Shown here piece by piece: positions 8,125-52,800 of a DNA stretch of 64,000 nt. The DNA lies in NCBI GenBank assembly GCA_032622095.1, contig CP136066.1, positions 202,080,978 to 202,144,977 of the forward strand, given 5' to 3'. The stretch's first letter is position 1; every line of letters starts with the position of its first letter. Below the pieces are notes generated by a model. It searched no databases, was not told where the DNA came from, and saw nothing but the letters and a program-made list of their open reading frames with translations. This DNA is from Siphonodentalium dalli (taxonomy: Eukaryota; Mollusca; Scaphopoda; Gadilida; Siphonodentaliidae). Made by a program: the position numbers and the translations under genes.

Positions 8125-8708
8125 TTACTTTTGCCAAATAATTTGCCAAATGAAAATATTTTTTGCCAAATTCTTTTAGAATTTGGCAAATATTATTCCT
8201 GATAGTATCATTTTCAGCAACCTGGATTGAGTCTTATGTTTCGACACTCGTGGATTGATATCGATAAAAAAGCAGTTAGTTAATAATTATACTCGCATCT
8301 CTATATATATATATTGTGGTTATCATACAACAATAAACCAATCAACGAACAATACAATGGTAGAAGCGTTGCTTCATCCGAAGGGATCACAAGAGGATTA
8401 GCCATGTAAACACCACCATCACACTAAATACGGGTAATCCCTCCAGCCATCGATATTAATGATATCAGCACAACTGCATCTTAATGGAGGTGTTAACTTT
8501 TGCGAAACTAAATAAAATGCAAAAAATATAATTCCATTGTAATGTTTTTCTGTGTAAAATGAATGGTATTAATTGACCGATACTTTTCAACTTTATTGAG
8601 GAATTAAAAAGTGACTTGCCAAAACTTTTGCCAAATGAAAATATTTTTGTCCAAATGTGAATTATTTTTGCCATTGGCAAATTTGGCAAGTGGCAGCGCG
8701 AACCCTGA
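8125..8708. mobile_element. Fragments of hAT-like family H (ttgccaaat-rich)
   Basis: Two blocks rich in ttgccaaatgaaaatattt (8125-8200 and 8610-8708). The second ends gcagcgcgaaccctg, the same terminus as the element at 40793-41579. The 54-bp array begins immediately after. Confidence 0.6.
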
Positions 8709-11700
8709 TTATAGGTAATATAAAATCCAATGGTGATCAGTTATTAAGACGCATTAATATCATTGTAGGTAATATAAAATCCATTGATCAGTTATTAAGA
8801 CGTATTAATATCATTATAGGTAATATAAAATCCATTTGTGATCAGTTATTAAGATGCATTAATATCATTATAGGTAATATAAAATCCATTGGTGATCAGT
8901 TATTAAGACGCATTAATATCATTATAGGTAATATAAAATCCATAGTTGCTCAGTTATTAAGATGCATTAATATCATGATAGGTGATATGAAAGCCAATGG
9001 TGATCAGTTATTAAGACGCATTAATATCGTTATAGGTAATATAAAATCCATTGGTGATCAGTTATTAAGACGTATTAATATCATTATAGGTAATATAAAA
9101 TCCATTGGTGATCAGTTATTAAGATGCATTAATATCATGATAGGTAATATGAAATCCAATGGTGATCAGTTATTAAGACGCATTAATATCGTTATAGGTA
9201 ATATAAAATCCATTGGTGATCAGTTATTAAGACGTATTATTATCATTATAGGTAATATAAAATCCATTGGTGATCCGTTATTAAGATGCATTAATATCGT
9301 TATAGGTAATATAAAATCCATTGGTGATCAGTTATTAAGACGTATTTATATCATTATAGGTAATATAAAATCCATTGGTGATCAGTTATTAAGACGCATT
9401 AATATCATTGTAGGTAATATACAATCGATTGGTGATCAGTTATTAAGACGTATTAATATCATTATAGGTAATATAAAATCCATTGGTGATCAGTTATTAA
9501 GACGTATTAATATCATTATAGGTAATATAAAATCCATTGGTGATCAGTTATTAAGACGCATTAATATCGTTATAGGTAATATAAAATCCATTGGTGATCA
9601 GTTATTAAGACGTATTAATATCATTATAGGTAATATAAAATCCATTGGTGATCAGTTATTAAGACGTATTAACATCGTTATAGGTAATATGAAATCCAAT
9701 GGTGATCAGTTATTAAGACGCATTAATATCGTTATAGGTAATATAAAATCCATGGGTGATCAGTTATTAAGACGTATTAATATCATTATAGGTAATATAA
9801 AATACATTGGTGATCAGTTATTAAGATGCATTAATATCGTTATAGGTAATATAACATCCATTGCTGATCAGTTATTAAGACGTATTAATATCATTATAGG
9901 TAATATAAAATCCATTGGTGATCAGTTATTAAGAAGCATTAATATCGTTATAGGTAATATAAAATCCATTGGTGATCAGTTATTAAGACGTATTAATATC
10001 GTTATATGTAATATAAAATCCATTGGTGATCAGTTCTTAAGACGTATTAATATCATTATAGGTAATATAAAATCCATTGGTGATCAGTTATTAAGACGTA
10101 TTATTATCATTATAGGTAATATAAAATCCATTGGTGATCCGTTATTAAGATGCATTAATATCGTTATAGGTAATATAAAATCCATTGGTGATCAGTTATT
10201 AAGACGCATTAATATCATTGTAGGTAATATAAAATCCATTGGTGATCAGTTATTAAGACGTATTAATATCATTATAGGTAATATAAAATCCATTTGTGAT
10301 CAGTTATTAAGATGCATTAATATCATTATAGGTAATATAAAATCCACTGGTGATCAGTTATTAAGACGCATTAATATCATTATAGGTAATATAAAATCCA
10401 TTGGTGATCAGTTATTAAGATGCAATATCATGATAGGTGATATGAAAGCCAATGGTGATCAGTTATTAAGACGCATTAATATCGTTATAGGTAATATAAA
10501 ATCCATTGGTGATCAGTTATTAAGACGTATTAATATCATTATAGGTAATATAAAATCCATTGGTGATCAGTTATTAAGATGCATTAATATCATGATAGGT
10601 AATATGAAATCCAATGGTGATCAGTTATTAAGACGCATTAATATCGTTATAGGTAATATAAAATCCATTGGTGATCAGTTATTAAGACGTATTATTATCA
10701 TTATAGGTAATATAAAATCCATTGGTGATCCGTTATTAAGATGCATTAATATCGTTATAGGTAATATAAAATCCATTGGTGATCAGTTATTAAGACGTAT
10801 TTATATCATTATAGGTAATATAAAATCCATTGGTGATCAGTTATTAAGACGCATTAATATCATTGTAGGTAATATACAATCGATTGGTGATCAGTTATTA
10901 AGACGTATTAATATAATTATAGGTAATATAAAATCCATTGGTGATCAGTTATTAAGACGTACTAATATCATTATAGGTAATATAAAATCCATTGGTGATC
11001 AGTTATTAAGACGCATTAATATCGTTATAGGTAATATAAAATCCATTGGTGATCAGTTATTAAGACGTATTAATATCATTATAGGTAATATAAAATCCAT
11101 TGGTGATCAGTTATTAAGACGTATTAACATCGTTATAGGTAATATGAAATCCAATGGTGATCAGTTATTAAGACGCATTAATATCGTTATAGGTAATATA
11201 AAATCCATGGGTGATCAGTTATTAAGACGTATTAATATCATTATAGGTAATATAAAATACATTGGTGATCAGTTATTAAGATGCATTAATATCGTTATAG
11301 GTAATATAACATCCATTGCTGATCAGTTATTAAGACGTATTAATATCATTATAGGTAATATAAAATCCATTGGTGATCAGTTATTAAGATGCATTAATAT
11401 CGTTATAGGTAATATAAAATCCATTGGTGATCAGATATTAAGACGTATTAATATCGTTATATGTAATATAAAATCCATTGGTGATCAGTTCTTAAGACGT
11501 ATTAATATCATTATAGGTAATATAAAATCCATTGGTGATCAGTTATTAAGACGTATTAATATCTTTATAGGTAATATAAAATCCATTGGTGATCAGTTAT
11601 TAAGACGTATTAATATCATTATAGGTAATATAAAATCCATTGGTGATCAGTTATTAAGACGTATTAATATCATTATAGGTAATATAAAATCCATTGGTGA

Positions 11701-12286
11701 TCAGTTATTAAGACGTATTAATATCATTATAGGTAATATAAAATCCATTAGTGATCAGTTATTAAGACGTATTAGTATCATTATAGGTAATATAAAATCC
11801 ATTGGTGATCAGTTATTAAGACGTATTAGTATCATTATAGGTAATATAAAATCCATTGGTTATCAGTTATTAAGACGTATTAATATCATTATAGGTAATA
11901 TAAAATCCATTGGTGATCAGTTATTAAGACGTATTAATATCATTATAGGTAATATAAAATCCATTAGTGATCAGTTATTAAGACGTATTAGTATCATTAT
12001 AGGTAATATAAAATCCATTGGTGATCAGTTATTAAGACGTATTAATATCTTTATAGGTAATATAAAATCCATTGGTGATCAGTTATTAAGACGTATTAAT
12101 ATCATTATAGGTAATATAAAATCCATTGGTGATCAGTTATTAAGACGTATTAATATCATTATAGGTAATATAAAATCCATTGGTGATCAGTTGTTAAGAC
12201 GTATTAATATCATTATAGGTAATATAAAATCCATTAGTGATCAGTTATTAAGAGGTATTCGGTTCGTTATACAGCGACCAATTTAA
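8657..12286 (+). other. 1209-codon open frame across the 54-bp array, probably not a gene
   Basis: Because 54 is a multiple of three, one frame stays open and encodes about 66 copies of an 18-residue unit, INIIIGNIKSIGDQLLRR. The other plus frames stop in nearly every unit (for example taa in gtaatataa). The N-terminus falls in the family H repeat and no promoter or splice context is visible. Both indels seen are 3 bp. Coding status is unproven; I favour a by-product of the repeat length. Confidence 0.3.
8711..12256. repeat. 54-bp minisatellite, ~66 units, 27-unit higher-order period
   Basis: The unit runs from ggtaatataaaatccattgg through gatcagttattaagacg to attaatatcattata, 54 bp. Variant order recurs after 27 units: the block ggtgatatgaaagccaatgg is at 8981 and again at 10436, 1458 bp apart less a 3-bp deletion. 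A 9-unit (486-bp) period appears in the tail, with atctttata at 11561 and 12047. Units differ mostly by single substitutions. Confidence 0.97.
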
Positions 12287-28800: not shown

Positions 28801-31800
28801 AGATCAATTCAGAGTGAATATAATTATCTCATTTGTGAATTACATGTGTATTTATTAATCGACGTAAAGTTTTTAACTTTTGAAAACAAAAATAACATAG
28901 GTTTTTCCTGGGTGGCAATTGGCTCACTAAAATGTGCACATCATTGACGAATAATAAGTCGATTGGAAATTTAAATACTGTCTCATACAGTACATCTGAA
29001 AATTTGACAGGCACCATTTTGAAATTACCAACACCATCCATTTTTTGACAGGCACCATTTTGAAATGACCAACACCATCCATTTGGTGCCTGTCATTTTG
29101 ACAGTCAGTAAAACAAAAATTATTTCGAGCCTTGTCTTTAATGCATCATGAAAGAGATAATACATTTTATTTTCCTTCCAGATACATGTACACCACTCTG
29201 ATTGTTGTTCCTAGCATTGGGCATGTGTTGGCTGACCACAACATTCCACCTGAAAACCTTCCTCACCGAGAACAGATCAAACTCCATCAGGAGGAACTAT
29301 ATGTTAACACACCAGGTATGCTAACACACTGGGTATGATAACACACTGTGCAGTATAACACTGGGTATGATAATATACCAGGTATGGTAACACACTGGGT
29401 ATGATAACACTGGGCAGGATAACATACTGGGTTTGATAACACATCGGGTATGATAGTGCACTGGGTATGATAATACACACCGGCTATGATAACACTGGGT
29501 ATGATTACACACTGGGTATGATAACACATCGGGTATGATAATGCACTGGGTATGATAACACACCAGGTATGATAACACCAGGTATGATATCACACCGGGT
29601 ATGACAATATACCCTGTATGATAAGACACCGGGTATGATAACACACTGGATATGATAACACACCAGGTATGATAACACTGGGTATGATAGCACACTGGTT
29701 TGGGTATGATAACACACTGGGTATAATAACACACCGGGCATATAACACTGTGTATGATAACACACCGGGTATGATTACACACTGTAATGTTTGTTCTATT
29801 GCCAGAACAATTATTGGATTTCATAATGGATTATTTAAACAAATAGTGAACCACAATTGACTATATGTATATGATAATAGCCATTTAAAGTGATGTGAAA
29901 CACTCCGGTAGGGTGATCAGATAGAAACTGAGAATAATCTTGCTCAAAGTAGTTATTTTTTATGAATATTAATCCAAATTGACAACACACGCCATCATAC
30001 TTATATATTAATTAAATACAATGACTCTTGATGTCAAAATAATTTGTGTTAGTTTGTCGCCAATAGTTGCGTCCCGAATCGAGATGTAAATATTTACAAT
30101 TGAGCGCTGTTCAGATGATGTTTTCTATGGAGTGGTTAGGTAGATTTCTTTGAAATTTTCGGCGATGTTAGTAGAATGCTACATTCCCCATGTTGACATA
30201 GTGCCTGGGTACTAACTTATCAATTTCACGCGCCCGAACAAGTCCATAATATGTCTTTAACAGATTTCGTAACTGATCATCCTGATGGTTTAATACATTT
30301 ATCAACTATAAATGTTTGTGTTGAGCTGTCACCGTTATAATTGGTTACATTAGATAATAATCAACTATAGTCTATATGTATGTTGGACCTGTTGGTATGA
30401 TAAACTTTGTCAAGCAAACAAATCTCATTTGACACCCATCAATTACTATCAGTTTTTTTCAATGTCAAATTTTAAAATTGATTTTTTCTATGCACCTTGA
30501 CTTATACGGAAATGCCATTTTGATAGGTTACATGAGGTTGGGAAAAGAGGTTGTTTGTGATTACAACATCTGGTTGTGACGAGCGAAAATAATCATAAAC
30601 AACAGCTTAGGTCCACACAAATTCTCATCAGAAATCAATTGACAGAATCATGATCAAGGACTCGCAATTTATCAGCAATAATCGCTCGTTGTTTTATCTT
30701 TTCATACTACCTTGATATATTACATGTTTGGCAACTATGATACTGCAGCTGGTAATAGTTGGGATTCAAATTCTATATTGGGATTTGAATATGCTAGTTT
30801 TTAATATTGTCCTCCGAAAATATTTCAGAGGACTATTATAATCAACATGTCTGTCCTTGCGTGCGTGCATCCGGCTTATCCGGTTGATAACTTCAACACT
30901 ATTGTTCGGAATTCAATCAAATTTGATATTTTTATGCGTAGTTCAAGTTCAAATTTGGGTACGAACCGATGATTTCGGATGGAGTTACGCCCCATTTTGA
31001 CTTAAAATTTGATGGTTTTCTTGATGTCCGAATGATGACTTGAGAAATATTTGACAGAATGCTATGAAATTTGGTATGTGGTGTTTATATGAGAAAGTCA
31101 CTATATGGTTCAAATTTGGGTCCGGTAAAATTAATTCTGACAGAGTTAATTTACGCCCCCTTTAGACTTAGAATATGACAATTATCTCAATGTCCGAATG
31201 ATAACTTGAGAAATATTTGACTGAATGTTATGAAACTTGTTAAAGCAACTTTTGCAACTGGATCAGGCCAAATAAAATAGTACCGTCGTTTCCGGTAACG
31301 GAGGGCAAAAAATTAGGGTAGGGAGGGGGGTAAACCTCTTCTTTTTTTCTTCTTTTTTTTTATTCCCATAATGCACAAGGTAATAACATCCCTTAATGTA
31401 TTGTAGATACATGTACAGATATACTATGTAATAATGTATATATAGTCTATCTAGATATAATATTGTGATAAACTTGCAAGGCACTTTATTTTATATTCTT
31501 TTATTTAAGTTTTTATTTATCATATGGCCTGGCAATAACAGGAGTTAGACTGCTCTTTGTACAAATCTCGCATATATAGGAGTGGCTGTCTTGAATCTTT
31601 TGTCTTAGGGAAGCTTTCACCACACCAATACCTTCCCCACATTGGGCACAATAATACTAAGTCAATACCTCTATAAAACTGGTAGAGACTTTATTCTAGT
31701 TAGTTGAATTTTTATTTACAAATTATAGTCAGGACTATTATATATGATTGATTCTTGGTATAATTTAGTACATGCATGTAGAATTAAGTAGTTATTCCAT

Positions 31801-34800
31801 AATAACATGTTGCGTTAAAGCATGAGTTCCCTGTATGTGAACAATATTGACCTGCTAAAAAAATTCCCACCTCCCTGCACCTTCCCACAAATCATCAATG
31901 TTTCATCCAATTTTCATACTGGGGTTACATGCTTCAGTGCCTAAAAATCTGAAAATTTAACAACAGATTGTTGAGAATTTGTATGAAACAATCAATTGTC
32001 ATATATGTCCAAAGCCGTTTAATTTCTATTAATCAACACCCCCAAACATTTCAAATTGAGTTTATAAACATATTCCATACCCATCAGTCTAAAAGACTTT
32101 GGGTTAAAGTTGCCTATTTTCGAGGAATCATGTTTTTGTATGTTTGTTAGCCCACTATCCCTGGTTTGGTGTGTTTTGTGAGTGCGATTTTGCAAGTTAA
32201 TTAGGCTAATGACTCATTGAATTGAAACCAGCAACTTAAACTAATAGAAACTGGAAGAATAAACTTCAATAAAGTCAAGTTGGGAAATGAGATTTGTAAT
32301 TTTCAGACTGTAAATTGGGAACTTTTGAAATTTTTTTTATTTTGCAAATAAAAAGTTTACGGGGGGCCATCTGGCTAGCGGGGGGTAGGGTTACTGGAAA
32401 CAAAGCTATTTTTGTTTATGCCTCATACAGGAACCTTTGAATCAGATGTCTTGATTGTTATATTGTGTTTTGATTTACACTGATATCTGTTGAATATTAA
32501 TTACAGCTGTAAACGATTTACACTGATATCTGTTCTATATTAATTACAGCTGTAAACGATTTGCACTGATATCTGTTCAATATTAATTACAGCTGTATAC
32601 GATTTACACTGATATCTGTTCTATATTAATAATTACAGCTGTAAACGATTTACACTGATATCTGTTCTATATTAATTACAGCTGTAAACGATTTGCACTG
32701 ATATCTGTTCAATATTAATTACAGCTGTATACGATTTACACTGATATCTGTTCTATATTAATAATTACAGCTGTAAACGATTTACACTGATATCTGTTCT
32801 ATATTAATTACAGCTGTAAACGATTTGCACTGATATCTGTTCAATATTAATTACAGCTGTATACGATTTACACTGATATCTGTTCTATATTAATTACAGC
32901 TGTAGACGTAAGTGTCCTTGAGATGTTCACCAATAGTGTTCTGTGTCGAGAGAGCTACCTATTCACATCCTGGATGAGGAAAAACCTTGAGGCGGCTTTC
33001 AAACTTTATTTGAAACAGGAGTATGTACAGGTTCTTTATCAACTTGATACTCTATATTATTTGATAAATTGGAATCATTTAATTGGATTTCTTGGTAAAT
33101 TTAGCCACAAAGAAAGACCTTTAACACTTCTATGATTGGAGCTTCCTGAAATTTTTCGAAAATCCTGTGCCAATGCATTCACTTATATATGCAAGTCTTG
33201 CATATATAAGAGAATACATTGTCCTAACAATATTTACCTTGACCTTGTAAGCCAGTGCATTCTCTTATATATGCAAAACTCTCTATGGGAGACTCGCATA
33301 TAATGCCATATATAAGAGAATGCACTGGCACAGGATCTTTAATTCTGCACCATTGCAGCTTCTGTCATGAAGGGTTTATTAATAATTTAAATAATGTAAA
33401 TGACATTGAACAAAAACAATAAAATGACACTTGCTTGTTTGAAATATTAACCATATAATGTACATTTTTTTCAGATTTGCATACTATAAATATATAGTGT
33501 TACCACTGTCCTAGTTTGTTTTGTGATGTTTCCACTTAATCAACTTTAAATAAATTTGCTTTTGAATCTTAATATTATTGCTGCATGGTTCATTTCCTCT
33601 GTTGCCAGTGTTTCCATCGTAATAGAAGAAATATTTTTAAAAGTTAAAAAAAATATATAGTGTACCCACTGTCCCAATTTGTTTCAAGATTTTGCCATTG
33701 AAAAATGAAAATAAATAGCAAGATATGATACTAATAGTTACACGTATAATAAATTCACGCAACATATGTCACCACTACCTATTTAGTCTGTTTGATGTCA
33801 AAATTTGATGAAATAACGTCCAGATATTTCCAATGTTTCCACATGTTTGAAGGGCCTCTATTTACCCAGATATGGGTACAGCAATGTCGAAATTCTTATA
33901 CGGGTTAAGCACCCATCAATGTATAATTTTTCAGGTACGGGTACAGCATTGTATAATTTTTCAGATACGGGTACAGCAACGTATAATTTTTCAGATACGG
34001 GTACATCACCTGCCTATGTATAATTTTTCAGATATGGGTACATCACCTGTCTATTTTTATTATGTATAATTGTTTAGATACGGGTACAGCACGCATGAAT
34101 GTCAAAATGTTTGTGAATGCATCCTCAATGTATAATTTTTCAGATCCAGGTTCAGCACCCATCAATGTATAATTTTTCAGAAACGGGTACAGCACCTGTC
34201 TATTTTTATAATGTGTAATTTTCCAGACATGGGTACACAACCTGTCTATGTTTGACTTGTATAATTGTTCACATACGGGTACAGCACCTGTCTATGAGCG
34301 GATAGCTCAGTTGGTTTGTGGGCCGACCTCTGAGCTACACCTTCGACACGGTCAAGGGTTCAAATCCGACAAAATATCGGTCGGACTTTGTGTCGCCATG
34401 TGCATTCCCAGTACCATGGGCATCACAAATCAATCATCGATGCCACGATCGGTGATCCCAGAAGCCAAAGAGTCTCAGACAAAATTTGAAAAAATGCGTA
34501 CTGGACTAACTTCGTACCTCTGCTCCTCTCGTAATGTCATGACCAGGGATGACACTACACTTGGCACACCGTCGGATCGGGAGCCGACGCTAATGGCTGT
34601 CCCATGTGCAACAATGTGCGCACGTTAAAGATCCCTACCGTGGCGAAGAAGTCACGGGTTCGGCAAAAAAAACTTCCTGGAAAAATTATGGATCTACTCG
34701 ATCCCGTCCTGTAAAAGCCAGCCCTGGTGACTAGGACGTAACTACAGATATGTATAACTTTGTAGTTACAGGTACAGCACCTGTCTATTTTTTACTTGTA

Positions 34801-37800
34801 TAATTTTTTAGATACGGATACAACAGTACCTTCTATGGATATTTTTTAGATACAGGTTCGGCACCTGTCTATGTATATTTTTATATGTGGGTACAGCACT
34901 TGTCTATGTATAATATGTTTAGATATGGGTACAGCACTTGTCTATGTATATTTTTAGATATTGGTACAACACCTATCTATGTATATTTTTAGATACAGGT
35001 ACAGCACCTGTCTATAATTTTTCAGATATGGGTACATCACCTGTCTATGTATATTTTTAGATATGGGTACATCACCTGTCTATGTATAATTTTTCAGATA
35101 TGGGTACAGCTCCTGTCTATGTATATTTTTAGATACAGGTTCAGCACCTGTCTGTATATTTTTAGATACGGGTACAGCACCTGTCTATTATTGACTCAGC
35201 TGGAGCATGGGTTGCGGAGATTATTTGCTAAAGTAAACAACGCTCCCGAGAGGATGGTCACAGCTGAGGTAAGCTGCTAAGATTCATTAAAGCATATATT
35301 TCCTAGATTCCTAAATGCTACATGGTTATTTGCTAATTGACTTTGTGACTCTCTTTCTTAACAACTCTTCCAATAACAATAAAATTGTTCATGAAATATT
35401 TCAACCATTTGATTGTTTTAGTGTTCCAGAACACAGTGTCATGCATATTTAACCCTTGCTTCGCGATTTGTAAGTTTGTGATTTGGCAAATGTCTTTAAA
35501 CTGTGTAATTATAATAAAAATACTATAGAAAATAGAGTTACAACCCTTTGATTGTAATTTTTCGTGGTTTAGCACCCAGGAAAATTTGTCTTTGTTGTCC
35601 CACATTTGTTGAATTACTTACAATAAGCCGATAAACTTCTTGGGTCCTGATATAATGTTTGTCACACTGCAGTGGCTGCGAAGCTTACTTTTGAACTTCA
35701 GACTCTGTAAAGACATATTCAGGGTTCCAGACCTCCAGTTACAACAACAACATGAAAAATCATATTGTGTTTTGTTCTGTTGAAAAAATGTTGAAAACCA
35801 AATATGACACATAATAAACTGCATGGAACTATATAAAATACAAATAATATCATTTTGTCATTCATTAATTTATAAAATAATTTTTGGTGTCCCTCTAAAA
35901 CATCGAAATGATATGAAATAAATTAATAGACAATTAATTCAATATGAAACAAAATAGCATCTTTCATGCAAGCCTGCAAATAGCGTGCCTGTCATTTGCA
36001 GAATGAGGTCCCCAGAGGGTGAATTTAGTAATGCTATCCCGCACAGCGGGCTAGCATCACCAAATTCACCCTCTGGAAACCTCATTCTGCTTAGGCCTCA
36101 TCTTCTGGGAAGTATTTATTGTATCAAATTAACACTGTTTTTAGTTACATTTTCCCTTCTGGAAGTTTCTATACCCCCTAATTTGCAGAAGATAAAATCC
36201 ATAATCGAGGCGCCCAATGGGTGAACATCACCAACTTCAACTGGGGAACTCCAATCTGATCCTAGGTCTACCATAGCAGTTGAGGGCCTAAGCAGAATTA
36301 GGTCTCCAGAGGGTGAATTTAGTGATGCTAGCCCGCTATGCGGGGTAGCATCACTAAATTCACCCTCTGGGGACCTCATTCTGCAAATGACAGACACTCT
36401 ATTTGCAGGCTTGATTTCATGTAGCACGCCTTGTTTTAAACATGTTATTATATGCTAGAAACTAAATCAAATGTGTTTGTAAAAATAAGCCCGGAACTCT
36501 GAATACATCTTTAAAGATGCATAATCTGATTAAGCACCCCTTAATTACTATTTATTTGGATTTGTGGGTAAAAAATATTTTGATTTGAGTCGAGGAACCC
36601 ACCTATCAAAGCTCAGAGTTATATTAGATATCGATTTTTGAAATCTATTATTTTTAACAATCGAGGCTTATCAGTAGCCAAGTAAAAAGTCAACGAGCCG
36701 ATTGAAGATGAATTGCCGATGAAGATGGATAACTATAAAATCAAGAGACTTTGTGTTGATAATAAGGCCAAATTTTGACAAACAACATTGTTGATAAAAA
36801 ACACGTTTCGGGCAATGTTATACTAGAGTTACAGTGGTTAGCATTATTTTTGGACAATTAACCAATTCTGATAACTGAAGTGGCATTTCTAAAAATGTTG
36901 TTGTTGGAATCTGATTATATGGGGACCATCAAATCGGATTGAGTGCCTTTAAGTTAATTAATGCTACATTGTTACTATTTGCAGGCTACGACTCTCTATA
37001 CCACTTTCGATGAGGTATGTATGTCTACAAGTATATCTAATCCTGCCATCCAGTAAACTATTTTCCAGTAATGCGTTCATTCCAGTGCAATGTTTTGGCC
37101 GAGGTACGCTTTCACGCGGGTGATATAACACTGTTTTGGCCGAGGTACGCTTTCACGCGGGTGATATAACACTAACTAGACTTGGTCTATTACGTTTACA
37201 GCCTTGAATTAGTGTCTGTAATTTGCAAGATGAGTCCCCCAGAGGGTGAATTAGTGACAATATCCTGCTCAGTGGATTAGCGTCACCAAATTTATCGCCC
37301 TCTGGGGACCTCATTATGCTAAGGCCTCGTCTTCTGGGAAGTATCTATAGTCTCAAAATAACATTGTTTTCAGTTTCTTCTGTCCAGTTTCTATATCGAC
37401 TAATTTGCAGAAGATAAAATGCATAATCGAGGTAACTTAAATTGGTGAACGTCACCAACTTCAACTGTGGAACTTCAATCTGATCCTAGGTCTCCCATAA
37501 CAGTTGAGGCCTAAGCAGAATGAGGTCCCCAGAGGGATAGCATCACTAACTTCACACTATTTCAAGGCTTGTTTGTTTGAACTAAAACCTATTCTAAGTC
37601 CACACAAACTTTTTTTATATCTGTTTCTCAGACATTACTTTTTTTCAATGGGAAGGCAGGTTTTTATTCCCACTTTTTATGACAAAAATTTCCCAGCAGG
37701 TCTGTTTTTAGCTCAACTTTACTTTGGGATCTGTTGTCCTGCACCTGCGATTATGAGGTCCGTCTGACTTTTGTGTGTGGAGTTATCCTTGGATAATCAG

Positions 37801-46800: not shown

Positions 46801-49800
46801 GACCTCGAATCGGGTGCCCGATATCGACATCGAATCGAATCTCGAATATTTGTTCGCAGGTCCCTACTATCTGGATAAATTAAGTGACATACTTCTTTTT
46901 TCTAATATTTCAGGAATTTATAACTTACGATTTAATTCTTTGTCGTTCCAGGTGAAGAGATTAACAGACAATCATGATTTGTTGTGTCGGTCGCTAAAGT
47001 ATACTCCAGACTTCAATCAGCGGTATATTATCAAAACATATTATCTATAGAGTCTGCAAATAGTGTGTCTGTCATTTGCATAATGAGGTCCCCGAGAGTG
47101 TGAAATTTGTATTCTATCACATACAATGGGATAGCATCACCAAGTTCACCCTTATTCTACTTAGGTCTTATATTCTGGAAAGTATCTATAGTCTCAAATT
47201 AACATTGTTTTCTGTGGGATAGCATCTCTAAATTCACCCTCTGGGGACCTCATTCTGCAAATGACAGACACACTATTTGCAGGCTTGGATAGAACTACTG
47301 AACCATACAGTTTTACAGTCTGATTGTGCTCAAAATTGTTGGCTAAAAGGTTGGAAAGACTAACAAGCCTTGAAATAGTGTGTCTGTCATTGCAGAATGA
47401 GATCCCCAGAGGGTGAATTTAGTGATGCTACCCCGCATAGCGGGCTAGCATCACCAAATTCACCCTCTGGGGACCTCATTCTGTTTACACCTCAGCAGAA
47501 TGAGGTTCTCAGAGGGTGAATTTGGTGATGCTAGCCCGCTATGCGTGGTAGCATCACTAAATTCACCCTCTGGGGACCTCATTCTGCAAATGACAGACAC
47601 CCTATTTCAAGGCTTGGGTTGCACAGTTCTTGGAAATGTTTTCAAAAAACCTAAAAAAATAAACATTTCCACCGGCTTTTGAACAATCATCAAATCACAG
47701 TACACATAAAAAGTCTATAACTATAAATATAGTTTATATAGTAACTATTGTGGTGGAAATTGTAATTTGTTCACTTTTTAACACATATTTCCGCAACTGA
47801 TAACTGTTGCTATTCGAAACATGATTTGTGATGCATCATGGCAACATTCTGCATTGCATTGCAGAGAGAGAATCGTGATGCATTTAAATTACCATTCATC
47901 ATCGCAGGCCAACAATGTTTACTAATTTTTCACAATGCAAGATTTATGCTGTCACACATAAATACAACCTTATGACTTTACAATTGATTTATCACTCTTT
48001 TCATATGAAGGAATGAAAACAAAGATGATAATGAATGGTATGGAAATGATAACAAATTTGCTGATTTTATGGCAAGAATACAAACTGTGAGACAAGCAAT
48101 TCAGGACTGCAGGCCACAGGATCCATGGCTGACTGTAGATGAAAGGTAAGCTCTATAATACCTGAATCGTCATGGTGACATAATATGGCTCTCTAAAACT
48201 CTCTATATATCATGTCAGGAGAAGATTATAAGTATATGTAGTATATACCATACCTTACAAACCTTTTACATGTCAATTCATTTCTTCCAAAGTTACAGTA
48301 ATGGCCTAAATAATCGACTCCTTAACCACAGCAGAATTATGGGTAACTTTTCAGGATTTAGTCGGAAATATGGTTTGTTGCCTTTCATCGGAAAGCTCTC
48401 AGTGAGAAAAATTACCCATAATTCTGCTGTGGTTAAGGAGTTGATTATTTAGGTCATTACTGTATGGCCCCTAGAGTGTAAACTATGTCCATCCCAGTAT
48501 TTCCATCATGATAATTAGATCAGATGTGAATTATTTTTTGGTATTTTCATGAACCATAATGAGATGAAGTATACCACATGTAAATTTATCAAGTCATCGC
48601 AGACTGAATTAAGACATCTGTCGAATTAACCCTTTACCCAACAGAACGGCCCTGTGCCAATGCATTCTCTTATATATGCGAGTCGACTATAGGTCGCCTC
48701 GCATATATAAGAGAATGCATTGGCTTAACACATTAAAAATTATAAAATTGTTAAAGAAAGTAAGAAAAAATGGTAAAAAGTGTTAAAAACAGATTTTTTT
48801 TAGGCCAATATATTCTCTTATATATGCGAGGCGACCTATGGTCGACTCGCATATATAAGAGAATGCATTAGCACAGGGCATAACTGTAACCATCACAATG
48901 TGGTCGATGAGCCGGTTCCAATGATATCCATATTTGTATGGTTTTATTGAGACAGACCCAAGATAATTTAGGCTGTTGCAGCTTTATTTGGCCGTTTTTG
49001 GCCGGTTTGTTGGGTAAAGGGTTAAGCCACCTCAGAAAATGAATAAACCTCAGAGAACAGGAACATTTGTGGGGGATACTCCTGCTGAAGGATTCATTGT
49101 CGCCACATGTTGGTGTGTTGGGTACCCAGCTTTACGAAAAGGTGTTTTTGGTTACCCAGCTTGACCTTTGCTTTTTATCGGCATCATAACACAAAGAAAT
49201 GTGATAATTTCTATAGCATAAACCCACTAAGGTCAAGCTGGGTACCCAAAACAACTTCTCTTAAAACTGGGTGGGTAACTAACGCACCAAAATGTGGCAA
49301 CAATAACCCCTTCAGTGCACTTGTGATTTTTCTCAACCCTTTCTGTACTAAATACTTATTGACAAGTAGTTATCCCTTAGGAAATGTTCAGATAATAAGT
49401 TCAACAAATTACCATATGTCGCAAAATTTGTTGAAAGACATATTATGTTTTTGTTCAGGTGCATGAAACTGATAAGTTAGTACTCAGGTGCTATGCCAAC
49501 GGAGGGAATGTATCATTCTACTAACAGCACCGAAAATCTCAAGCAAATCGACCATACCACTCCAAAGAAAAAATTGTCTGAACTACGCTGAATTGAAAAA
49601 TATTTACTTCTCGAATCGGGATGCTTCTGTCGGCGATTAACTAATGAAAACGATTTTGCCATCGGCAGTCACTGCATTTAATTAATATATACGAATGACG
49701 GTGTGTGTTGTCAATTTAGATATAATATCTGTAATAATAACTACTTTGAACAAGATTATTCTCCGTTTTTTATGTGATCACCCTACCGGAGTGTTTCACA

Positions 49801-52800
49801 TCACTTTAAGATTATTCTCCGTTTATATTTGATCACCCTACCGGAGTGTTTCACATCACTTTTAGATTATTCTCCGTTTATATTTGATCACCCTACCAGA
49901 GTGTTTCACATCACTTTAAGATTATTCTCCATTTATATTTGATCACCCTACCGGAGTGTTTCACATCACTTTAAGATTATTCTCCGTTTATATTTGATCA
50001 CCCTACCAGAGTGTTTCACATCACTTTAAGATTATTCTCCGTTTATATTTGATCACCCTACCAGAGTGTTTCACATCACTTTAAGATTATTCTCCGTTTA
50101 TATTTGATCACCCTACCGGAGTGTTTCACATCACTTTAATATTATTCTCCGTTTATATTTGATCACCCTACCGGAGTGTTTCACATCACTTTAAGATTAT
50201 TCTCCGTTTATATTTGATCACCCTACCGGAGTGTTTCACATCACTTTAAGATTATTCTCCGTTTATATTTGATCACCATAGCGGAGTGTTTCACATCACT
50301 TTAAGATTATTCTCCGTTTATATTTGATCACCATAGCGGAGTGTTTCACATCACTTTAAGATTATTCTCCGTTTATATTTGATCACCATAGCGGAGTGTT
50401 TCACATCACTTTAAGATTATTCTCCGTTTATATTTGATCACCCTACCAGAGTGTTTCACATCACTTTAAGATTATTCTCCGTTTATATTTGATCACCCTA
50501 CCGAGTGTTTCACATCACTTTAAGATTATTCTCCGTTTATATTTGATCACCCTACCGGAGTGTTTCACATCACTTTAAGATTATTCTCCGTTTATATTTG
50601 ATCACCATAGCGGAGTGTTTCACATCACTTTAAGATTATTCTCCGTTTATATTTGATCACCATAGCGGAGTGTTTCACATCACTTTAAGATTATTCTCCG
50701 TTTATATTTGATCACCATAGCGGAGTGTTTCACATCACTTTAAGATTATTTTCCGTTTATATTTGATCACCATAGCGGAGTGTTTCACATCACTTTAAGA
50801 TTATTCTCCGTTTATATTTGATCACCATAGCGGAGTGTTTCACATCACTTTAAGATTATTCTCCGTTTATATTTGATCACCCTGCCGGAGTGTTTCACAT
50901 CACTTTAAGATTATTCTCTGTTTTTATTTGATCACCATACCGGAGTGTTTCACATCACTTTAAGATTATTCTCCGTTTATATTTGATCACCCTGCCGGAG
51001 TGTTTCACATCACTTTAAGATTATTCTCTGTTTTTATTTGATCACCATACCGGAGTGTTTCACATCACTTTAAGATTATTCTCCGTTTATATTTGATCAC
51101 CATACCGGAGTGTTTCACATCACTTTAAGATTATTCTCCGTTTCTATTTGATCACCATACCGGAGTGTTTCACATCACTTTAACTGTAAATATGTTTATT
51201 CCTTGCAGTCCTATCTCATCGTTGATATTAGTATTGTTTAAGTATGCAAAAATAATGGGAACTATTAAAGGAAAAGCGCCGGAAAGGCACAGACGGTTAT
51301 CTCATAAGTTTGCGCGTTTCCAGGATAGATACAGTAATGCTCTAATTAATCGACCTCTTAACCACAGCAGAATTATGGGTAACTTTTCAGGATTTAGTCG
51401 GAAATATGGCTTGTTGCCATTCATCGGAAAGCTCTCGCCGAGAGCTTTCCGATGAATGGAAACAAGCCATATTTCCGACTAAATCCTGAAAAGTTCTGAA
51501 AAGTTACCCATAATTCTGCTGTGGTTTAGAGGTCGATTAATTAGAGCATTACTGTAACTCTTGAAAAACATACGAAGACAACACGTTTCTCTACATTTAG
51601 TATAGAGATTGCTCTTGTTATATGTTAGCTTCTTATTTGTTGCAGGTTCTTTTTGGCGCTGCGCCCTTTTGGACCATCGATGGAATGTATTCTCCATAGT
51701 CACATAATAACATTATACAGATGTGGTTCAAACCAGGTTTGTTCTTAGTAAATTATTCTTCATAGTCACATAAAAGGTTCAATCATTTTGTTCCGATTTT
51801 CCATTCTTGAGTTATTCATCTTTGTTTATCAGGAAATGTTGACTTTTTGGTCCGTCCGATGTCTGTTCATGTCATAACTTCAACGGTTGCGCTCGGATCT
51901 CAATGTAATTTGGTATGGATGTTCACTACTATGAGAACATTCAATGGAAGGTTCAATAGTTTTGTTCAGATTTTCCATTCTAGAGTAATTCATGTTTGTT
52001 TATATGAAAATGATGATTTTTGGGTCCTGTCTGAGTATATAAGTCATAGGTTATAGGTTATAGGTTATAGGTATACCCATACTATGCAGTGTGCCACAAG
52101 GGGGTATGTACCGGACGACAGTCCATCTCTTGTTATGTACCTCAGGAAAACAACAGGCATCTCTGTGGACTCCTAGGCTACTTTATAGATGAGACAAGAC
52201 ACAGATGATTCTAATAACAACACAAATAGTTTTATATGATATAAAAATAGAAAAAAAGATGTGTTTTATGGATTTAATGATATTTTATCATTTTAATTTT
52301 TTGCAGGCGTATGAACAGTCACATGTTATGTCAAGGGAATCACAGATCATTGGTTTACTGCAGAAAATCGTCACTGAGCTGTATGATGGGGCGTCCCATT
52401 ATAATGATGCTGCATGTATGCGACAACATCAGCTTGAAACTCATCAACTGAGATCTCGCCAGAGAGAAAACACAAGAAGACTGATCGAAAGGTAATTATT
52501 TAAACTTTAAGTCTTATATTGAATTAAATGATTTAATGATTTTTTTGCCCCATGATGAAAGTGTACAATCGAAGCGGTAATGTAACGCAATGTGTCATAA
52601 TTGAGGGAAGCCTGTACACTTCCAGGAAATGACAGTTTGATGAGACTGCATTTGACTCAGTATGCAGGATTTCCATTAGTACGGCTCAGTGTCTGTAGGA
52701 TGGCCTCAATCCCCTCGCTGATGATTTGTGAGTCATACATGTACCTAAATTAAATCGCATTCTATCGTAGAAAATCTGGCTGTAATGAGAGTTCCATGGT

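Follow-up and report, generated by a model that had tools for sequence, protein, structure and literature searches.

Three tandem arrays on splice junctions of a DUF4209 gene in Siphonodentalium dalli: probable exon-edge minisatellites of the mirage kind

Here we describe three tandem arrays that lie across splice junctions of a DUF4209 gene of the scaphopod Siphonodentalium dalli, in a 64,000-bp stretch of DNA (C6:202080978-202144977; "the window"). The arrays extend across the 3' edge of exon Ea and the 5' edges of the next two, Eb and Ec, covering 16, 9 and 23 exon bases, respectively (48 of 1184), and are otherwise housed in two adjacent introns. They are probably ordinary minisatellites at exon edges ("mirages"), in which a founding unit straddled the junction and selection on the coding sequence allowed growth on the intron side alone. 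The arrays extend into the introns only, recur in a second copy of the gene with different numbers or organisation of units, and offer spare splice sites that nearly all damage the reading frame.

The gene is identified by a Pfam match to DUF4209 (E = 8.5e-24) of the 395 residues encoded by 11 joined exons; a gene with this domain is ERMARD-like. The 11 exons (22 junctions) were placed by eye, and further exons are possible. Shorter Pfam queries fall short, with E = 0.045 (below the cut-off) for 226 residues of the gene and no match for the 119 residues of Ea-Eb-Ec, and neither a PDB sequence search nor an Rfam search gives a match. Ea, Eb and Ec are bounded by AG and GT and combine in phase into one open frame of 119 residues; their lengths (134, 121 and 103 bp) are identical in the second gene copy. 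The exons and arrays are listed below, with a slash marking the junction and array units as called by Tandem Repeats Finder (TRF) where so stated.

29182..29315, + strand: exon Ea, acceptor CCTTCCAG/ATACATG, donor ACACACCAG/GTATGC, phase 1
29300..29782, + strand: array 1, 17-bp unit x 28.8 (TRF)
32472..32908, + strand: array 2, 43-bp unit x 10 (TRF), last unit ending 9 bp inside Eb
32900..33020, + strand: exon Eb, acceptor AATTACAG/CTGTAGACG, donor AAACAGGA/GTATGT, phase 2
about 33870..35188, + strand: array 3 as a whole, degraded, units mostly 30-46 bp
33870..34296, + strand: array 3, distal part, units mostly 30-46 bp (TRF rows 33917-34296)
34297..34747, + strand: tRNA-SINE-like insertion splitting array 3, read by eye, absent from the second gene copy
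34748..35188, + strand: array 3, proximal part, most units 33-38 bp, with the final unit reaching 23 bp into Ec
35166..35268, + strand: exon Ec, acceptor TATTTTTAG/ATACGGG, donor GCTGAG/GTAAGC, phase 0

In array 1, the first unit consists of the final 16 bp of Ea and the first base (G) of the donor, and every usual unit contains a GTATG donor-like site. Array 2 is organised in the window as a 132-bp higher-order repeat (43+43+46), with units that end in ATTACAG and open with nine bases agreeing with the start of Eb at eight of nine positions. The junction copied in this array is near-palindromic (TTACAG/CTGTAA in the units, TTACAG/CTGTAG at the edge of Eb). The units of array 3 mostly open with a copy of the initial 23 bp of Ec and terminate in TTTTTAG or in the acceptor-like TTTTTCAG; 3 of 26 unit matches in the window and 8 of 25 in the second copy were judged not to belong to the array. 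A longer copy, of 31 bp of Ec reaching into a conserved LLLT stretch, was considered and rejected, the fit of 30/31 having come from a hand-picked form of the unit. In the nine 46-bp units of array 3, the column majority matches Ec at roughly half of the eight positions past base 23. The insertion that splits the array is presumably like a transfer RNA (tRNA)-derived short interspersed element (SINE), given a likeness to A and B boxes; ARAGORN does not find an intact tRNA.

The anchoring of the arrays was assessed by counting near-copies (at least 18 of 24 bases) of the 24 bp straddling each junction, within 600 bp. The Ea donor is followed by 15 of them, and the Eb and Ec acceptors are preceded by 9 and 10, respectively; none lies on the exon side of these junctions, and the other 19 of the 22 junctions of the gene have none. 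Shuffled exon edges equal the real match to the unit in 1, 67 and 0 of 200,000 trials for arrays 1, 2 and 3, respectively. The initial annotation of this DNA had described arrays anchored on one donor and two acceptors and lying on the intron side, and this description holds. In all three arrays a repeat unit crosses the exon-intron boundary, and splice signals are stacked in many copies on the intron side, as is characteristic of mirages.

A second copy of the DUF4209 gene lies on the same chromosome, ~540 kb upstream, and contains all three exons in an open frame, both introns and all three arrays. Since this copy carries all three, the arrays are unlikely to be accidents of assembly. Array 1 has ~5 units in the second copy and 28 in the window, and thus shows the copy-number instability of mirages between two gene copies (paralogues or alleles). 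Array 2 consists of 11.9 plain 43-mers in the second copy, without the 132-bp order, and array 3 lacks the SINE-like insertion and has a different one instead. The presence of the arrays in both copies, with different numbers of units, implies that they arose before the two copies separated and have been modified afterwards.

Further differences between the copies were noted around array 3. The insertion in the second copy (L023:5260-6622) is ~1.4 kb long, with long inverted ends, and is DNA-transposon-like; none is present in the window. Identity between the copies rises from 89-93% to 97-98.6% within array 3 (window 34750-35361; L023:5081-6889) and remains high for 9 kb downstream. This jump may mark a boundary of conversion or exchange in array 3, or may reflect two allelic haplotypes of different age. 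Elsewhere in the genome, four CCT and two kinesin loci (on C1, C6, C7 and C8) are also matched almost identically by another place on their own chromosome, at a distance of 37-330 kb, and may represent retained haplotigs or frequent local duplication.

The array units provide many spare splice sites, which were tested for keeping the frame open through Ec. The frame is kept by 0 of 20 donors in array 1 (a tally limited to GTATG sites), 0 of 9 acceptors in array 2 and 2 of 17 acceptors in array 3 (17 distinct among 25 rows), so that 44 of the window's 46 tested spare sites break it. The two open acceptors of array 3, at 35061 and 35133, would lengthen the protein by 35 or 11 residues with no stop. 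In the second copy, 1, 7 and 1 distinct spare sites were tested for the three arrays, and none is open. Against the donor consensus, the exon-proximal donor CAG/GTATGC scores 7/9, four spare donors equal it and the 16 others score 4-6. It had been suggested that a valid splice signal remains no matter which copy is used, which is wrong for all but 2 of the 46. Intron-side growth would instead be tolerable because the outermost site persists, not because any site serves.

Comparable arrangements are described in several published accounts. In amphioxus, the term "mirage" was introduced for Adh3, and mirages are also reported in the globin genes BflGb6 and BflGb9 (at 5' and 3' boundaries), in troponin C and, again in the same arrangement, in lancelet PGBD5 (PMC3087553, PMC3902484). 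The amphioxus mirages contain AG/GT signals in many copies, with units of 10-72 bp in Adh3 (PMC3087553, PMC3902484); the copies in the BflGb6 mirage number 6 and 3 in different haplotypes, and splicing is reported to be undisturbed (PMC3087553). The present arrays share with them boundary-spanning units, AG/GT signals in many copies and variable copy number, and differ in that three occur in one gene, with up to 28 units in array 1. The three arrays are another instance of the known mirage arrangement, notable for three in one gene and ordinary in kind.

A minisatellite with donor-like units at a donor is also described, in an account referring to Turri 1995, in human IFI6 (6-16, G1P3), where the units are donor sites and two downstream units are reported to be in use (PMC4526556); the difference is that all 20 spare donors tested here break the frame. 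In human segmental duplications, genes are reported to be altered by repeats at exon-intron boundaries (PMC2812944). Gene-structure change or intron gain is linked to tandemly duplicated splice signals in the Rogers model, potato RdRp, Drosophila and human segmental duplications (PMC2812944, PMC2891723, PMC4974935). Such duplication would likewise be the source of structural change in the present gene, with the difference that introns already present are extended at their edges and a new intron is not demonstrated. Literature searches gave no earlier account of arrays of this type in the gene among the open-licence papers listed.

The origin of the arrays as ordinary exon-edge minisatellites can be pictured as follows. 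We infer a seeding step in which a founding unit, 17, 43 or 30-46 bp long, would by chance have straddled the junction in an array-rich genome, and would then have multiplied through slippage, unequal exchange and tandem duplication. Copies on the intron side would be removed by splicing while the exon-proximal site is used, and selection would eliminate copies that displace the exon edge, nearly all of which would disrupt the frame. This loss would explain why each array enters its exon by only a few bases, otherwise extends into the intron alone and keeps changing there.

The array-rich background was measured in the window (10155 of 64000 bp in arrays) and in 14 other 10-kb regions (18181 of 140000 bp, ~13%), hand-chosen at round-number places, one of which (L031) is 60% array. 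Arrays make up 19.1% of the intron bases of the gene, and three of its 22 junctions fall within them (binomial P = 0.82). At least three nearby copies are found at 3 of the 22 junctions and at 801 of 4942 positions (16.2%) in this gene. The initial annotation had proposed such a count of junction-matching copies as a check, and run in this gene it gives no excess.

Several observations weigh against the ordinary origin. A null in which the founding unit must itself straddle the junction (taking as founding unit the shortest strong period, ignoring selection and, in the window calculation, entering array 3 as three arrays) expects 0.28 junctions of 22 from the window (P = 0.003) and 0.44 from the 14 other regions (P = 0.009, bootstrap 0.0016-0.03), P values that precede any correction for a locus picked as odd-looking. 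The match of array 3 does not extend into conserved codons, an extension that would have indicated that the exon came first. The overlap of array 2 in the second copy agrees at only 6 of 9 bases, which is reached by 2045 of 200,000 shuffles, and array 1 weakly resembles three other places in the genome (66-72%). The three junction arrays are thus no more than chance by position, and mildly more by founding unit. Applied to 25,000 genes with 22 junctions each, the same null gives ~230 genes (41-750) with three by chance, and the earlier statement that chance can hardly account for the clustering is not upheld. A gene with three such arrays is about what one would expect an array-rich genome to hold somewhere.

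The dispersal of the units was examined in the genome (2.23 Gb, nine contigs) with a search that omits very common words. Arrays 2 and 3 have matches only in this gene and its second copy, which fits locally born repeats. One of the likenesses of array 1 corresponds to an array on C1 whose unit is different and 19 bp long, and the three may be chance resemblances of short units. A dispersed satellite family was considered as a source and rejected, with arrays 2 and 3 at the two gene copies only and array 1 at three weak places. These results also bear on the order of events. The arrays could have come first, as intronic minisatellites with a splice-like unit of which the terminal copy became the exon edge, moving the junction by a few codons. 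Acceptor- or donor-like sites are present in nearly all units, the end of Ea in the second copy equals the array 1 unit exactly except for the last bases, and the weak likenesses of array 1 elsewhere could point the same way. This origin is nevertheless unlikely, as it needs three events in one gene with phase kept, against equal exon lengths and phases in both copies, and arrays 2 and 3 occur nowhere else.

A special process at junctions had also been proposed, in which co-transcriptional R-loops, nicks or reverse splicing start tandem duplication, making such arrays far commoner than array density predicts. Three arrays in two adjacent introns, against the seed expectation given above, are in its favor. 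In the genome, triple tandem acceptor motifs (TTTTYCAG) give 636 matches and the reversed motif 354 (ratio 1.8), and triple tandem donor motifs (AGGTRAGT) give 3490 and 2089 (ratio 1.7); single motifs outside arrays have forward to reversed ratios of 1.8 (47:26, acceptor) and 1.6 (14:9, donor). Counted as loci among the matches listed (the first 100), there are 45 acceptor loci against 39 reversed and 14 donor loci against 23, both below the single-motif ratios. Two dispersed families contribute 21 of the 45 acceptor loci among the matches listed, leaving 26 if each family counts once, in a sorting that covers these 45 and not the 39 reversed loci. A pattern of donor pairs at fixed spacing shows no excess (1442 matches, 2716 reversed). 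After correction for single motifs, splice-motif tandem arrays are therefore not in excess over reversed motifs in the genome, in a test that would miss arrays at just a few per cent of junctions and that counts motif arrays which need not be at junctions. Such a process is accordingly unsupported at that resolution, and in view also of nearby copies at 3 of 22 junctions and at 16.2% of all positions, and of the 19 junctions in this gene without copies, we consider it improbable. It is equally improbable that junctions are preferred birthplaces of minisatellites in this lineage, with introns lengthening at their edges by stacking spare splice sites in a genome-wide mirage process that may extend beyond cephalochordates.

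Finally, the spare sites could have a selected function in giving alternative isoforms or regulating splicing. The stop-free acceptors at 35061 and 35133 would allow this in array 3, and the downstream units reported in use as donors in IFI6 offer a parallel (PMC4526556). With no open product from the 20 donors, the nine array 2 acceptors or any of the 1, 7 and 1 sites of the second copy, a selected function is very improbable.

Two other repeats in the window were noted. A 54-bp array with 66 copies (8708-12259) forms one open frame of 1215 codons, which needs just one stop-free unit because 54 is divisible by three. A 55-bp array with 26 copies is present at 49752-51183, and its unit occurs once, reversed, at 29890-29945 in the intron holding array 1; this unit probably belongs to a dispersed element.

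Read as ordinary exon-edge minisatellites, the three arrays provide a clean three-fold case, in which the second gene copy reveals how the arrays change. They also constitute a natural test of how the spliceosome chooses among up to ~28 near-identical sites. In a genome that is ~13% tandem array, ~1-3% of junctions are expected to carry an array through straddling alone, which gives a usable null, and such genes will therefore turn up for readers of genomes without any special mechanism.

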